Source: a virus
Virus record (IMG/VR): IMGVR_UViG_3300036830_000056
Location: 1-40,767 of that record
Reading direction: 5' to 3' (one strand)
Length of the DNA: 40,767 nucleotides
Shown here: positions 2,802 to 14,107 of the stretch, in pieces
How the letters are laid out: the number at the start of each line of letters is the position of its first letter
Numbering within the stretch: the stretch's first letter is position 1
Position numbers and translations under genes: made by a program
The notes under the pieces: generated by a model
What the model was told of the DNA's origin: nothing
The model's input: the letters and a program-made list of their open reading frames with translations, nothing else
The model's database searches: none

Positions 2802-2954
2802 TCATCCTTCCTCCGGCCAGTCCTCTAGGCAATACGCACAGATCACGTCACCGTTTTTCGTGCAGTACTGCAGCGACTGCGGGTCTTTGCAGTTTGGACA
2901 ATTACCGACGACCAGCGTGATGCGCTTGACGGTGGGCTTCGTCTTCTTCTTCAT
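2802..2954 (-). CDS. 50-residue zinc-ribbon microprotein
   Basis: A short gene of 50 codons starts at the ATGA overlap with the methyltransferase stop and ends in GGAGGAAGGATGA, whose purines form the ribosome binding site of the HNH gene. The N terminus is basic (MKKKTKP). Cysteine pairs CPNC and CAYC, with another Cys between them, suggest a single zinc ribbon. The function is unknown; a DNA-, RNA- or protein-binding accessory is likely. Tight coupling on both sides supports it as real. Confidence 0.7.
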   Translation of the reverse strand: MKKKTKPTVKRITLVVGNCPNCKDPQSLQYCTKNGDVICAYCLEDWPEEG

Positions 2955-3760
2955 GGCTCCAGCTCCATGTATGCCTTCACGAACAACGCGCCGACCTGCG
3001 GGACGATGGCATTGCCGTACCCGCGCAGGCGTCCCACACGGGCGGGTATCCCATCAGCCAGCGGGAATGTGCCGGGTTCAACAGGCCGCGCCTTCCCGTC
3101 TCGACATTGGAGCCAGTCGGCGTCTGCCCAGACATCACGAGCAGGACCTGCCGAGGCAGCAGATCCTGTCGGCGGCGTGTGCTGCCATCTGGATTCGTCG
3201 CCGTCAGCGACATGCCCGCTGAGTCTTTCCAATCTCTCGCGGTCGGCGTCACCCATGCTGCGAGCGGCCACGAAAAACAATCGCGGGCGGCGATGCGGGG
3301 CACCAACGCACGCAGCGCACAGATCCGCCGACGCGACGGCGTAGTTCTCATTTTCCAGGTTAGATGAAACACGGTCGAACCACCCGAGACCGTCTGCGCT
3401 CGCAACCTGTTCACCAAAGACAACGACAGGGCGGCACTCGACGATGAGCTGAAACCACGCAGGCCAAAGGTCGCGCGAATCACCGGAGCCATCGCCGTAC
3501 CCAGAGGCGCTGAAGGGTTGACAGGGACAACTGCCCGTCCAGACTGCTCGCGTCTCCGGCCAGCCGGCGAGTCGGAGGGCGTAGGGCCAGCCACCGATGC
3601 CGGCGAAGAAGTGACACTGCGCGAATCCTCGGAGGTCAGCTCCGGAAACATCGACGATAGATCGCCGGTCCACTTCACCATCGGGTAACTCACCTGTCCG
3701 AATCAACGCGGTCAACCAGTCTGCGATCTGCGCATCGTTCTCGTTGTAGTAGACCGGCAT
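2951..3760 (-). CDS. DNA cytosine-5 methyltransferase
   Basis: This 269-residue enzyme transfers a methyl group from S-adenosylmethionine to C5 of cytosine. Visible motifs are the AdoMet-binding FAGIGG (52-57), the catalytic TGSCPCQPFS with nucleophile C80, FGEQVA (115-120) at the place of the usual ENV motif, APHRRPRLF (154-162), and the closing GYGNAIVPQVG (247-257). The target-recognition stretch between about 165 and 245 is short. The GEQV form is common in phage members. It overlaps the zinc-ribbon gene by ATGA and follows the J-domain gene by 3 bases. Role could be self-protection from host restriction or the first step of base hypermodification with the glycosyltransferase downstream. 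A second frame inside it also looks coding. Confidence 0.9.
   Translation of the reverse strand: MPVYYNENDAQIADWLTALIRTGELPDGEVDRRSIVDVSGADLRGFAQCHFFAGIGGWPYALRLAGWPETRAVWTGSCPCQPFSASGYGDGSGDSRDLWPAWFQLIVECRPVVVFGEQVASADGLGWFDRVSSNLENENYAVASADLCAACVGAPHRRPRLFFVAARSMGDADRERLERLSGHVADGDESRWQHTPPTGSAASAGPARDVWADADWLQCRDGKARPVEPGTFPLADGIPARVGRLRGYGNAIVPQVGALFVKAYMELEP
2977..3693 (-). other. Possible overlapping gene inside the methyltransferase
   Basis: In another minus-strand frame within the methyltransferase gene there is an open stretch of up to 238 codons, starting with GTG or an ATG four codons later. Unlike a random shadow it contains strings I associate with real phage proteins: SGGSTVFHLTWKMRTTPSRR, TPTARDWKDSAGMS, a cluster of Arg residues near LLPRQV, and at the end LNPAHSRWLMGYPPVWDAC followed by AMPSSRRSA. 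I infer either true dual coding (overprinting) or a family of database proteins that are themselves shadows of this methyltransferase. It has no ribosome binding site that I can defend. Confidence 0.3.
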
Positions 3761-8396: not shown

Positions 8397-8624
8397 TCAA
8401 ATAGCAGAAACCGCTTCGGCCCGTGGTCCTTTGGCTCCAGAACCCGCCACGAACTGCACGCGGGATCCCCGCTGCAGCTGCTCGAATCGGAGCGGACTGA
8501 CGCAGGCCGAGTGATGAAAAAAGTACTCGTCCTGCCCGCCGTCCACGAGGATGAATCCGAAGCCTTTGTCTGCGACGACGTTCTTGATCGTGCCCGTCAT
8601 GGTGTTGCCGTTCTGCCTGCCCAT
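8397..8624 (-). CDS. Cold-shock domain protein
   Basis: A 75-residue CspA-type OB-fold protein. It has the first strand TGTIKNVVADKGFGFILV, which contains the RNP1 motif KGFGFI, then EYFFHHSAC for RNP2, and the closing strand RVQFVAGSGAKGPRAEAVSA. Such proteins bind single-stranded RNA or DNA and melt structure. It is encoded in the early operon just after the pentamer-repeat region and a coiled-coil protein, so it could act on structured transcripts. The start with MGRQNG is used; MTGTIK is the alternative. Confidence 0.85.
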   Translation of the reverse strand: MGRQNGNTMTGTIKNVVADKGFGFILVDGGQDEYFFHHSACVSPLRFEQLQRGSRVQFVAGSGAKGPRAEAVSAI

Positions 8625-8888: not shown

Positions 8889-9605
8889 CTAGCGAACTGG
8901 TTCATCCACGAAATAGATATCGAGCCCCGGAATTTTGCCCGCTGATTTCATGGCCGACGCGTACGCGGACACCTTGCGCGCATCGACCATCAGGAATTCT
9001 CGCGGCACCAACTGCATCGCTCGTGCGATCACCGGCCCCGGCGTCCGCGTGACATCGGTCGGCCCGCTTGCAAAACGCCAGCGCCAGTACCGTCGGAACT
9101 TCAAGCCGTCCACCTGCCGCAGCGGGTCCTCGACAACGACAGTCGGCAGCGGGGCCGCGATGGCTTCACTGATGACGCTCGCGGCCAACTCAGGCTGTCC
9201 GCTGCTTTCCAAGTGCGCTGCTTCCGCTGCGGCGCGTGCCTGATCCTGTTCACGTTGTTCTTCCGCCAGCTGCCGCTCGCGGGCTTCGCGCTCCCGATCT
9301 GCCCGCGTTTTGAAATTGGAGATCGCCGAGGCGAGCACGTCATCGATGCGCAGCAGCGGGGCCAACAGATCGCGCCGGCGATCACAAAGTAGGCGGTGCG
9401 TTTTGTATGCGGCCTTCACCAGGTCCGCGAACACGAACTCGACATGCGCTATCGCGTCCCCGATCTGCTGACGGTCGATGACGGCCTGCTCGAGATCGCC
9501 CGTTGTGACAATCACCAGATCGGGACGCAGTCGCTGCACCAGCGCCGTCGTCACCTGTTCCAGTTCCCCGCCGACTGCGCGTGCTGCTTCAGGATCGATC
9601 TGCAT
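8889..9605 (-). CDS. Coiled-coil protein of the recombination region
   Basis: This 238-residue protein has a long charged coiled coil (residues about 85-145: NFKTRADREREARERQLAEE, then QDQARAAAEAAH), followed by a small domain with GLKFRRYWRW, IARAMQLVPREFLMVDARKV and a PGLDIYF end. The layout resembles phage proteins that carry an N-terminal helical hairpin plus a C-terminal small domain and sit near recT or erf genes. I place the start at 9605 (MQIDPEAAR), where AGGG lies at good spacing, because codons farther upstream are part of the pentamer repeat tract. Exact function is unknown. Confidence 0.65.
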   Translation of the reverse strand: MQIDPEAARAVGGELEQVTTALVQRLRPDLVIVTTGDLEQAVIDRQQIGDAIAHVEFVFADLVKAAYKTHRLLCDRRRDLLAPLLRIDDVLASAISNFKTRADREREARERQLAEEQREQDQARAAAEAAHLESSGQPELAASVISEAIAAPLPTVVVEDPLRQVDGLKFRRYWRWRFASGPTDVTRTPGPVIARAMQLVPREFLMVDARKVSAYASAMKSAGKIPGLDIYFVDEPVR

Positions 9606-10808
9606 TGCCTGCCCTACCAAGGGTTGTCCCGCCGTATTCCGCCGAACCTCGTCATTGCCTGCCATGTCTCGCCCTGCTTTGCCCGGCTGCACCGAGCCAC
9701 GTCAGACCGAGTCGGACCTTGCGCCGCCTGCCTTGACTTACCTCGTGCTGCAAAACGTCACCGAACCCAACGTCACCAAACCGAGCCGCGCCTGCCGAGC
9801 GTTGTCTGGCCGGTCGTCACCCGGCCCAGCCGCACCTGATCGAACCAAACCACTCGACTCCGGGCCATGCCTGCCTCGTCGTGTCGAGCCGCCCATGCCC
9901 TGCCTGCCCGCTCCAGACCGCGTCCGTTCCTGCCGCGTCGAACCGGGTCGAACCGCACCGGGCCTACCACGCGTAACCAGACCGGGCCGGGCCTGCCTCA
10001 CCTAACGCTGTGCGGCCTGTCCTCGATCTGCCGCGCCAGATCAAGGCGTGCGTCTCCCGACCTTGCCGCGCCGGCCGTGTCATTCCTAACCACATGTCAC
10101 GCCGCCGTGACTAACGTCGCCTGTCTTGCCGCGACCGTACCTGCCGTGCCGAATTCCGCCGAGTCTCGCCCGGCCCGATCACGCCTCACCTGTCCAAACG
10201 TGGTCAGACCTGCCTCGCCTTACATCGCTGCGCCGCATCGCGTCCTGTCTAACCACGCCTCGGCCCGCCTCGCCGGCCGCGCCGTATCAGTCCTCACCGC
10301 GACCACCAGTCCCGACCAATCCGTGCCATTCCGCCCTTGCCTGCCAGTCCGGGCCAATCAAAACCCCGCCTCGTCGTTCCAGTCCTGACCTTGTGTTGCA
10401 CCGCGCAACCATGCCAAGCCTGCCGCGCCTGTCGTCGTGATGCCTGAGCCTCGTCATTCCACGCCACGCCGAGCCTGCCGTGTCTCGTCGTGCCACCCTG
10501 ACCCCGCCTTGTCGTGCCGAGGTCTGCCCCGCCCAGCCTGCCGCGCCGCGCCTTTCGTTTCGCTCCCGACCGTGCGTTCCCAGTCCGTTCCGAGCCACTC
10601 CGTACCACGCCTGCCACGCCGCGTCTTACCCGACCGCGCCCGGCCGGGCCTTGTCATGTAGTGCCATGCGTAACCGTGCGACGCCTGCCGTGCCCGACCC
10701 GGCCGCTCCATCACTCACGTCACGTCGCCAATCCCAGCCTGCCGCGCGTCGCCCAGCGCCACCCATCCTCGGCTGGTCACGCCTCTCACCGCCACGTCCG
10801 TTCAACTT
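9606..10808. repeat. 1.2-kb degenerate pentanucleotide (GCCNN)n tract
   Basis: The whole gap between two early genes is filled with an imperfect 5-bp period: on the plus strand GCC (or GTC, ACC) followed by two free bases, about 240 units; on the minus strand, the transcribed sense, NNGGC. Examples are the blocks from 9661 (gccat gtctc gccct) and from 10401 (atgcc aagcc tgccg). The phase slips by single bases near 9725, 9790 and elsewhere, as expected from small indels. Because 5 is not a multiple of 3, several frames on both strands stay open and yield Pro/Ala/Arg-rich shadows. No gene, tRNA or mobile element is visible inside. Confidence 0.85.
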
Positions 10809-11318
10809 TCACGCAGGCGGCGGTGCTGTTGCCGCTGGCGTCTCGCTCTCGGTGTCCTCAACGGTGTTCGCCACGCGCAAACCCGAAACGGTTTCGAGCA
10901 GCTGGTCGACATCGTCTTCCAGGCCGAGCGCCATCGCGACGATGCGGGCTCTCCGCAGCGCCGAGGTCACCCGTTCCAGTTCATTGACCAGTGCTCGACG
11001 CGCGAGCGATTCGGTTTCCTTCAACGTGTCGAAGGTGATGTAGCCGCCGCCCTCTTTCCCGATCATCATCGGGTCCCGCAGGTACTTCGGCAGCCGCAGC
11101 GTGTGATTCTCGGTAATCACAATGACCTTCACGAGCCGGATGATTTGGCGCGTGCGTTCCAGCCAGTGCGCCTCGGCTGCGCTCGCAGGGTCCCAATCGT
11201 ACAGTTCGTGCAGCGGGCTCTCCACCCGCTTCGCATCCAGCAGGATGGCCTCGGCCGATGTGTGCCCGAGTTTTTCGAGCGATGTCAGGTAGTTGATATG
11301 CCGTTCGGTGAGACGCAT
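10809..11318 (-). CDS. Conserved phage protein of unknown function
   Basis: The 169-residue protein starts MRLTERHINYLTSLEKLGHT, has the conserved phage stretch SPLHELYDWDPASAAEAHWLERTRQIIRL, a strand with NHTLRLPKYLRDP, the EGGGYITFDTL turn, a long helix SARRALVNELERVTSALRRARIVAMALGLED in broken form, and an Ala/Pro/Thr-rich tail. This pattern recurs in many phage early regions without a known function. AAAGGAG precedes the ATG by about ten bases. Its stop codon marks the right edge of the pentamer tract. Confidence 0.7.
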   Translation of the reverse strand: MRLTERHINYLTSLEKLGHTSAEAILLDAKRVESPLHELYDWDPASAAEAHWLERTRQIIRLVKVIVITENHTLRLPKYLRDPMMIGKEGGGYITFDTLKETESLARRALVNELERVTSALRRARIVAMALGLEDDVDQLLETVSGLRVANTVEDTESETPAATAPPPA

Positions 11319-11320
11319 GA

Positions 11321-12097
11321 TCAGGCGACTCCTTTGCCCTGACGCCTAGAAATTTCCTCATCGAACCAGCCGAGCAACGAGGCCGTCTCTTCGTCGTACG
11401 CGGCCGGGGCCTTCAGGGCTTCATCCTGCATGTCGCGCCCGCCGCCCTCGATGATGGACAGGAACTGCGCATCGTCAGGCTCGACGAGATGGAACCCGCC
11501 GAACGTGCCGGATCCTTTTTCCTTGCGCCAGTCCCCGACGCCGATGAACAAGCCGGCAGCAGCCAGCAGCCGCAGGACGGCATTGACCTTCATGAGCGGC
11601 TGCACGAATTCGATGCGCAGGCGACACGCCCACTCGGGGATGATGGCTCGCGTGCGGATGTCGGGCGTGCGGTTCATGTCAGCGGAGCGCACCGGAGCGC
11701 AGATGATCTGCGGCACGCCGAAGATGCTGGTGTACAGACCCTGCACCCAGACGAGCCGCCCGATCTGCGCCTTCTTCGTATTCGGCAGGTCCAGGGCCGC
11801 CGTCATCATCGCCTTCTTGAACGACGCCGACAGCACGGCGATCCGCGTCGGCCCTGACTGCAGCGCATAGGGCGACGCCCGGAATTCGTCGTACGGTTTG
11901 TGTTTGAGCATCGTCGCGCGTTCGGTGGCGTTGCGCTTCGGGGCAGGCAGGAGCAATTCGTGTCGGGCTTTCTCGCTCAGGCGATTGCAGATCAAGGGCT
12001 CATCGCCCACGATGCAGAGTTCGGCGAAGCCCTTGGAGACTTCCAGTACATCCACGGTGTCCGTGCCGCTGTCGCCCTTCGGTGTCTTTTTTGCCAT
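11321..12097 (-). CDS. Early conserved protein, possibly recombination-associated
   Basis: I do not recognise this 258-residue protein by name. It opens with a charged tail (MAKKTPKGDSG), then ELCIVGDEPLICNRLSEKA, a conserved block RIAVLSASFKKAMMTAAL, a second block RTRAIIPEWACRLRIEFV, and LFIGVGDWRKEKGSGTFGGF near the C terminus. The two beta-rich blocks with a glycine-rich end give it the look of a nucleic-acid-binding fold. It sits between the nuclease-like gene and the conserved 169-residue gene, in the recombination part of the operon. GGAGG lies upstream of its ATG. Confidence 0.6.
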   Translation of the reverse strand: MAKKTPKGDSGTDTVDVLEVSKGFAELCIVGDEPLICNRLSEKARHELLLPAPKRNATERATMLKHKPYDEFRASPYALQSGPTRIAVLSASFKKAMMTAALDLPNTKKAQIGRLVWVQGLYTSIFGVPQIICAPVRSADMNRTPDIRTRAIIPEWACRLRIEFVQPLMKVNAVLRLLAAAGLFIGVGDWRKEKGSGTFGGFHLVEPDDAQFLSIIEGGGRDMQDEALKAPAAYDEETASLLGWFDEEISRRQGKGVA

Positions 12098-12120: not shown

Positions 12121-12858
12121 TTACCGAGTTACCGCGTGTTCGAGCTGCAGCGCATCGTCGTCGGTCCTCCAGTCCCAGCCGACCGACTTCGGCCGCTCCG
12201 CGTCCACGACGTTCACCGCCTGCGCGACAATCAGAAATCGTGAGTAGTCGCGCGGGTCGTTGTACTCCGTCATGATGGGCAACTGCCCGTCACGGTGCAG
12301 ACGTACGGCCACCCGCCGCACGTAGGGATGTTGCGCGAGAAAGGATTTCAATCGCTCCTGTCCGGGCTGCTGCGCCCATGCTTTCGCGGCCAGTGAATAG
12401 CCACAGAGCTGCAATCCTTTCGATGCATCTTCAGGGTCGCCGGTCGCATAATCCAGCAACGCCGCCCGGCCGTCAAACAAGCCCAGCCAGTCAAACGTGC
12501 CGGCGTAGCGTGGCGCGATGTTGGCCACGCGATACTCGCAGAGGAAGGTCTGCAAGCGGCCCGACGCCATCAGCAGCTGCCACGACTGCAGGTAGCCGAG
12601 CAGGTCCGCATTGGCGTCGGCGAAGTGGGCTTCATCGAGCCGGCCCTGATTCCAGAGTTCGATGGCGCGATGGACCGCGCGGCCGCGCGACAGCGCCCGC
12701 GTCAGGATCCAGTCAGGCACGAAATCCTCGAACCGGACCGTCAGGCCCACCTTGCGCAGAATGTTCGTCGTGCTCCGCACCGGGCGCGGCTGCAGGTCCC
12801 CGAACCAGCGGACGGTGTATTGATGCGCATCGCTCAGGAAGATTTCGGGGCTCGTCAT
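12121..12858 (-). CDS. PD-(D/E)XK nuclease-like protein with altered active site
   Basis: The 245-residue protein follows the RecB/Cas4-like exonuclease plan: a helix with GRAVHRAIELWN (His63), then E108 in CEYRVA, the strand YAGTFDWLG (D123), ALLDYATGD (134-141), and LQLCGYSLAAKAW. In active members the third strand reads DxK, usually DYKTG; here residue 138 is Ala. The codon is GCG, so it is not a one-base sequencing slip to AAA or AAG. It may be a structural partner of the RecT-like protein or may use another Lys (K147 in ASKGLQ). It overlaps the upstream stop by ATGA. Confidence 0.75.
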   Translation of the reverse strand: MTSPEIFLSDAHQYTVRWFGDLQPRPVRSTTNILRKVGLTVRFEDFVPDWILTRALSRGRAVHRAIELWNQGRLDEAHFADANADLLGYLQSWQLLMASGRLQTFLCEYRVANIAPRYAGTFDWLGLFDGRAALLDYATGDPEDASKGLQLCGYSLAAKAWAQQPGQERLKSFLAQHPYVRRVAVRLHRDGQLPIMTEYNDPRDYSRFLIVAQAVNVVDAERPKSVGWDWRTDDDALQLEHAVTR

Positions 12859-13099: not shown

Positions 13100-14107
13100 T
13101 CAGTCGGCGATGTGGAACGTAACCAGGTGCAGGTGCCCGTCAGCGGTCTGCGTGCAGGTGAAGCTGAACGTGTGATCGGTGCCGATCACTTTTTCCAATT
13201 CGAGCGCCGCAGGTCCGTCATCGGTGTCAATCTTCCGGCCGTCTGCGAGCGTGATGGCAAACATGCCGAGGAAGGGTTCGACGGCGACCACCTTCAGCGG
13301 GCCGATCACAATCTGGGCGTCGGCCACTTTCTGCGGCGATGGAAAGGAGACCGGCTCGGCGCGGCGCGTGTCCGCTTCCCGCTCGGTGAAATCCTGCAGG
13401 GAGCTGCGCACTTCCCGCACTTCACGGTCAGCAGCCGGGCGCGGCGTCTCGTCTGGCGGCAGGTCCTGCAGTTCTTCAGCGGTACGCGACAGCCCTTTCA
13501 GTACGTCGGCGAAGCCGTCGCGGGCCGCGAAGGCGCGCGCACGCATCTGCAGCTGGCGATCTGGAAAGGTCGTCCACGGGCCAGCCTTCCCGAGCAGGTT
13601 GGCCTTGCGGGCCTGCCCGATGCTGAAGTGCCGGGTCGTCGGTTCGTGTCCACGCCGCTGGAATGTGCAGACCGCCGCCGTGTCGTCGTCCTTCCAATCA
13701 GCAGCCACCAGCCCGTCGCGGCGTTCGCCCTTCACAAGGTAGTACTCGACGTGCCCGATGTACTCCGGGGATTTCATGACGATGCCGAGCAGCAGGTCCC
13801 CGTAAAAGCTGACGCGCCCGTTGACGATGTACGAGCCCTGCAGCGCCTGCATGGGGGACACGCCCACTTCGGCCCCGGCTTGGATGACGGCGAACACGTT
13901 GGCGGGTTTGTTTTTCAGCTCGGGCGGGACGAGGTCGGACTGCGCGAGGGCGTTCGCCACGCGGAAGACTTCATCGAAGGTCGTCGGGACCAGCCCGTAT
14001 GCGCCGGCCCGTACCGGCACGCGACTGGCAGCAGGCTGCAGGGCAGCGGACTCGGGCGGTCGCGTCTCAGCGGGCTTCGTATCGGGCGTGGTCGCGGGCG
14101 TGGTCAT
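13100..14107 (-). CDS. recT: RecT-family ssDNA annealing protein
   Basis: The 335-residue protein has the phage RecT core: FDEVFRVANALAQSDLVPPE, KPANVFAVIQAGAEVGVSPM, LQGSYIVNGRVSFYGDLLLG, VCTFQRRGHEPTTRHFSIGQ, KAGPWTTFPDRQLQMRARAF and GFADVLKGL. RecT proteins coat single strands and anneal them to complementary DNA in phage recombination. A Pro/Thr-rich leader (1-30) and an extra C-terminal domain from about residue 255 (QIVIGPLKVVAVEPFLGMFA onward), with beta strands, extend it past the core. GGAGGCACT precedes the ATG. With the nuclease-like gene and rusA it forms a recombination set. Confidence 0.85.
   Translation of the reverse strand: MTTPATTPDTKPAETRPPESAALQPAASRVPVRAGAYGLVPTTFDEVFRVANALAQSDLVPPELKNKPANVFAVIQAGAEVGVSPMQALQGSYIVNGRVSFYGDLLLGIVMKSPEYIGHVEYYLVKGERRDGLVAADWKDDDTAAVCTFQRRGHEPTTRHFSIGQARKANLLGKAGPWTTFPDRQLQMRARAFAARDGFADVLKGLSRTAEELQDLPPDETPRPAADREVREVRSSLQDFTEREADTRRAEPVSFPSPQKVADAQIVIGPLKVVAVEPFLGMFAITLADGRKIDTDDGPAALELEKVIGTDHTFSFTCTQTADGHLHLVTFHIAD

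Follow-up and report, generated by a model that had tools for sequence, protein, structure and literature searches.

A long, degenerate and A-punctuated pentamer tract in a phage genome is very probably a guide-RNA array of the VIPR kind

Positions 9606-10808 of the window, which here means the whole analysed stretch of 40,767 nucleotides, can be identified with high confidence as an array of guide RNAs (vrRNAs) that forms part of a VIPR system encoded by a phage. VIPR, the Viral Interference Programmable Repeat, is a virus-encoded relative of CRISPR that was reported in 2026 (PMC13142463, bioRxiv 2026.04.26.720920). It combines a phage RAMP protein, Vipr, with vrRNAs of 9-16 YNNGG repeats in which GGY and NN alternate; the target, a double-stranded DNA, is defined by the NN pairs, one target base, usually the wobble base of a codon, being skipped between them, and binding represses transcription of the target, mostly in inter-phage conflict (PMC13142463). 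VIPR loci occur chiefly in phages and proviruses. The array in the window is very probably an unusually long, degenerate and A-punctuated array of this known kind, and the virus record that carries it also encodes an integrase, TerL, a portal and a capsid protein.

The period of five is visible in several measures. Within the tract, autocorrelation is 0.438 for a lag of 5 and 0.412 for a lag of 10, where composition alone predicts 0.302, and a 5-phase cyclic HMM describes the sequence best (BIC 2732, compared with 2826-3186 for periods 1-4, 6, 7, 10 and 15). The consensus of this HMM on the plus strand is G (.60), A (.25) or T (.13), then C (.78) or T (.17), then C (.82), followed by NN; on the RNA strand the cores of the window read G (.82), G (.78) and then C (.60) or U (.25), which amounts to 85% Y, with the NN positions nearly free. 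Parsing with the same model gives 248 units, 224 of them 5 nt and 22 of them 4 nt long. Scored by the model over 300 bp at a time, the tract reaches 101.5 bits (~100) above composition, while nothing outside it is positive anywhere in the window (maxima -25 on the plus and -34 on the minus strand). A pattern of 13 YCNNN units matches three times in the window, always inside the tract, and not once in 100 dinucleotide shuffles. The first-pass annotation had described a real array of about 240 GCC/NN pentamers and had proposed autocorrelation as a check; the peak above composition, the HMM and the parsed units bear this description out. The tract also fills its gap exactly, as had been noted, from the stop of the gene at 10809-11318 (minus strand) to the ATG of the gene at 8889-9605 (minus strand). 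Adjacent units are no more alike at their N positions than column composition predicts, and the tract is therefore not a decayed simple satellite, again in agreement with the earlier description. RNA folding of the tract exceeded that of shuffles by nothing over 903 nt (z 0.11), and no 3' tail was recognised; VIPR types other than type II may lack such a tail. Rfam returned no family for the tract, and a search among cultured phages found no near-DNA relatives.

Table 1. Coordinates of the array, its punctuation and the neighbouring genes in the window
Feature	Position	Strand	Remarks
VIPR-type vrRNA array (very probable)	9606..10808	-	RNA (GGY[NN or A])n, ~240 pentamers; sense from the family strand rule and co-directional flanking genes
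One-base reset, example	9729..9729	.	GCC-T-GCC; RNA GGC-A-GGC
Further one-base resets	near 9610, 9793, 9872, 9994, 10342, 10421, 10476, 10539, 10612, 10686, 10740
Predicted guide	10687..10736	-	10 NN (GCC strand): GT CG CG GC AT TC TC TC AA CA; bounded by two resets
Accessory gene Fam1, candidate vap	10809..11318	-	phrog_15946, 169 aa; family HMM E 6.3e-24; between vipr and array
vipr gene (Fam2), RAMP/Cas7-like	11321..12097	-	phrog_4652, 258 aa; family HMM E 1.8e-30
Gene next downstream of the array	8889..9605	-	phrog_10477 match (annotated exonuclease)
Cold-shock domain protein	8397-8624	-	Pfam CSD E 1.3e-15; downstream of array
Exonuclease gene	12121-12858	-	Early recombination region, context of module
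RecT gene	13100-14107	-	Early recombination region, context of module

The one-base phase slips of the tract, described at first pass as occasional, are not noise but a conserved punctuation (T on the GCC strand, A in the RNA). They are not random: a single T follows the core in 15 of the 22 slips, and GCCTGCC is present 14 times, against a phase-model expectation of 0.8. Roughly 15-20 such resets cut the window array into guide-like segments, many of them of 9-17 NN, and across the array family the length of the segments between resets peaks at 7-12 NN. Among the Cheoctovirus arrays, which are related to each other, the differences consist of whole inter-reset segments. Single A resets (GGC-A-GGC) would punctuate the array into separate guides, and each guide would be delimited by its resets. 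Staggered arrays with overlapping vrRNAs are mentioned for VIPR types other than type II (PMC13142463), and this may be the architecture of the window array. In some long and clean GCCNN arrays, one-base resets are rare or absent (L012:6331-7019, L102:468-955, L060:5685-6011 and L086:4823-5142); these arrays perhaps represent a different VIPR type.

Tracts of the same kind are widespread. Pattern scans found period-5 tracts, usually cleaner than that of the window, in at least 186 other loci, mostly viral contigs, and a stricter scan gave at least 120 loci in viral contigs and 21 in genome sequence that totals 257 Gb; the search of viral sequence for a GCCNN pattern, suggested at first pass, was thus rewarded with many tracts that share the window's grammar. 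In the 244 arrays parsed from 186 loci, 9002 spacers have two bases and include all 16 dinucleotides, and 1088 have one base, which is T in 1039; the pattern used to collect the second locus set itself contained one GCCTGCC per locus, and the T preference holds in the first set as well. The most frequent core variant is ACC, followed by TCC, GTC and GAC, and the window tract has the same spectrum. In pairs of arrays more than 92% identical, substitutions affect 21 of 218 NN sites and 3 of 396 GCC sites, an approximately tenfold difference (mismatch of 8-11% at NN against 0-1.5% at GCC); these pairs come from relatives, as the window array has no close relative. The earlier suggestion that the GCC core is under selection while NN varies is upheld by this contrast. 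Several arrays can occur on one contig, as on the 15-kb Bacterium HR16 contig, where a gene for a HAD-like hydrolase lies between arrays (L123 and L140). In several mycobacteriophages, part of an array has been called a hypothetical protein, or the vipr gene has been extended through it (L257:4483-4869, L262:596-784, L263:596-784 and L269:656-1588), and such coding-sequence calls, for example Donkeykong gp48, LastJedi gp43, Pippy gp47 and Philus gp52, are probably wrong.

Orientation is nearly constant. Genes opposite to the GCC strand border 176 arrays on both sides, and only 2 arrays have both neighbours on the GCC strand itself, which implies that the RNA reads GGC-NN-GGC or GGC-A-GGC. For the window, the strands of the flanking genes predict a co-directional transcript that includes the tract and reads NNGGC, as had been proposed.

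Two protein families dominate the flanks of the arrays, Fam2 (~209 aa, 98 members) and Fam1 (~160 aa, 117 members), and both are encoded in the window, where transcription would pass through them immediately before the array. A comparison of the Fam2 profile with PDB 36pp_D, the 'SUSP1 Vipr protein', gives E 9.2e-23, and the Vipr of SUSP2 is recovered by the Fam2 HMM at E 2.8e-32. The AF2 model of Fam2 (pLDDT 87) gives 47 Foldseek matches at E<=0.001, all 47 of which are CRISPR RAMPs, and aligns with Csm3 at a VIA-align Z of ~10; Vipr proteins are characterised by an RRM core and a G-rich loop, and a loop, VGIGEGRP...GxGxF, is conserved in the family. Fam2 has no Pfam and no NCBIfam model, and phrog_4652 carries no function. 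Judged by these profile and model comparisons, the window gene is predicted to encode a Vipr homologue with the RAMP fold. A reverse search with the Vipr protein alone returned cultured Mycobacterium and Gordonia phages and one cyanophage, and in 21 of the 21 cultured phages inspected, which belong to a few lineages, an array adjoins the vipr gene. The earlier idea that a small protein reads the array is retained in part, the candidate reader being a Cas7-like RAMP encoded just upstream rather than a zinc-ribbon protein.

The function of Fam1 is less directly indicated. Its AF2 model (pLDDT 88) has no PDB match at E<0.9, no Pfam model covers it, phrog_15946 has no assigned function, and comparison with the SUSP2 vap alone detected no homology (E 0.039, 0.9 bits). 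From its constant position beside the arrays, Fam1 is a candidate for the VIPR accessory (vap). A family that is homologous to SUSP2 vap (HMM E 1.1e-11, 9 members) flanks some arrays (L126:6696-7178), so that reset-bearing arrays also occur with that accessory type. Upstream of some arrays, a ParB/Sulfiredoxin-type nuclease-like family (assigned by eye, 5 members) replaces Fam1 or Fam2 (L054:3502-4194 and L123), and genes for RecD-like helicases (by eye, 7 members) also occur as array neighbours (L148:662-1903 and L188:2635-3840). The gene next downstream of the window array is probably not part of VIPR, and no evidence was found that the cold-shock gene belongs to it. A close search for relatives of the immediate neighbours of the array returned none.

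By analogy with the published system, Vipr would polymerise along the RNA with one protomer per pentamer, holding GGY and exposing NN. The NN pairs of one stretch, with one target base skipped between pairs, would then specify a double-stranded DNA site, probably in a gene of a competing phage, prophage or satellite, and binding of the Vipr ribonucleoprotein there would repress transcription. The copy in the window may be active. Its cores are much more degenerate than those of most relatives, which leaves two readings, that the array may be decaying or that it may follow a divergent consensus.

The composition of the NN pairs supports a 3-nt target step without the use of any target match. 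In RNA orientation, the NN dinucleotides pooled from 232 arrays are closest, among the six frames, to codon positions 1-2 in sense, in 500 of 500 bootstraps (JS 0.034, compared with 0.061-0.144 for the other frames). The 224 NN of the window alone give +9.6 bits for the same frame and -24 to -99 bits for the other five. Successive pairs show no correlation at the junction or at a lag (N2-N1 junction MI z 0.5), and TA within pairs stands at 0.67 of expectation. A target step of 3 nt explains both the codon-position signature and the flat junctions. The NN positions, for which drift had been one suggestion at first pass, most probably hold guide-RNA information.

Among the alternatives, the one that survives best is a sequence-specific RNA scaffold or sponge that is coated by the RAMP, with NN as free filler and no DNA target, yet it too is unlikely. 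It is consistent with the lack of junction and lag correlation between successive pairs and with target searches that gave no significant match. Free filler, however, would not be expected to fit codon positions 1-2 in sense, as both the pool and the window alone do; the flat junctions are also what a 1-nt skip predicts, and in the published system NN serves as the guide (PMC13142463). That the tract is a decayed tandem repeat or an assembly artefact without function is a still poorer explanation. The degenerate cores of the window copy speak in its favour, but the same grammar recurs in at least 186 loci of many samples and in cultured phages, and GCC is conserved where NN varies, which refutes this explanation for the array family.

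No significant natural target emerged for the window guides. In ~2.3 Mb of local DNA, 1-nt-skip targets showed no excess over shuffles, and gapped guides matched viral_contigs 0, 0, 1 and 2 times, about the chance number. For a single guide from M. szulgai, a search of 396 Mycobacterium genomes gave no match with two or fewer mismatches, and five cultured phages had no contiguous self-targets within 10 kb. Apparent gap-3 matches in local DNA were rejected when they were traced to unmasked arrays of the same phages, and a visual impression that the NN guides form palindromic operators did not rise above shuffles. One 1-nt-skip site for the predicted guide at 10687-10736 matches 9 of its 10 NN (L280:4556-4581), which is not significant. 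It lies in a gene that by eye resembles a phage head-morphogenesis protein, with the skipped base at the wobble position and the RNA in sense; it is held to be only a candidate, because the chance of such phase and sense is ~1/6 and L280 has no protein similarity to the window. These searches also bear on contiguous guides, that is, on the view that the concatenated NN of a segment copy a contiguous target with a 0-nt skip. Local sequence has two contiguous matches of 18-19 nt where controls gave 0, 0 and 1, which would suit such guides, but gap-0 near matches are not in excess, natural DNA is strongly dinucleotide-biased, as is seen within the pairs themselves, yet the junction is flat, and for SUSP1 the binding assay of the preprint excludes them (PMC13142463). 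Contiguous guides are accordingly highly improbable. An element acting at the DNA level (an origin, a packaging or pause site, a zinc-ribbon or recombinase-site array, or primase sites) is just as improbable, for although the array adjoins genes for RecT, exonuclease and RusA in the early region, such recombination genes are not its constant neighbours elsewhere, and both the strict dependence of the array's strand on that of its flanking genes and the constant RAMP association across unrelated phages tell against it. The functions first proposed, namely an origin, a packaging or pause element, a zinc-ribbon array or a structured RNA for the cold-shock protein, gain no support.

With VIPR as described, the window shares a RAMP homologous to SUSP1 Vipr, an adjacent candidate accessory gene, a phage location, a sense RNA of GGY/NN pentamers with hypervariable NN, and an NN composition that fits a target read in steps of 3 nt with the wobble base left out. 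In characterised type II loci, such as that of SUSP2, the vrRNAs are separate, have 9-16 repeats each and end in a structured 3' tail, whereas the window has ~240 pentamers without a gap, punctuated by single A resets; its cores are degenerate, and its candidate accessory gene (Fam1) is unrelated to SUSP2 vap. Class 1 CRISPR-Cas systems (type III Csm3, type VII Cas7) have the backbone fold in common with it, and a helical RNA-protein complex is implied in both. In contrast to them, the window has no CRISPR repeats, spacers or cas operon, its period is 5 with a GGY core instead of a 6-nt step, and guide information would reside only in NN. A CRISPR array of near-identical repeats and unique spacers is likewise not what the tract contains, with its 3-nt cores and spacers of 1 or 2 nt. 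TIGR-Tas (PMC12045711) is also an RNA-guided system of phages and prokaryotes with a tandem array, but it uses another guide-RNA-binding protein and contiguous spacers, whereas the protein of the window is a RAMP.

These results indicate that raw sequence is enough to recognise a VIPR guide array, with no need of its protein. The signature is simple: period-5 GCC/ACC, spacers of two bases or one T, and genes on the opposite strand. It is now tied to two widespread phage families of 'unknown function', phrog_4652 and phrog_15946, which include members in cultured mycobacteriophages and Gordonia phages. The codon-phase signature of the NN pairs independently supports the 1-nt skip code, and with it the target proteins may be decodable from the guides. 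It is tentatively proposed, as a possibility somewhat short of even, that the single-A resets are an undescribed punctuation by which many VIPR guides are set in shifted registers on one transcript of hundreds of pentamers, and that each guide is an in-phase copy of codons from a coding strand. If this is true, an array could be read as a series of peptide fragments encoded by its target genes.
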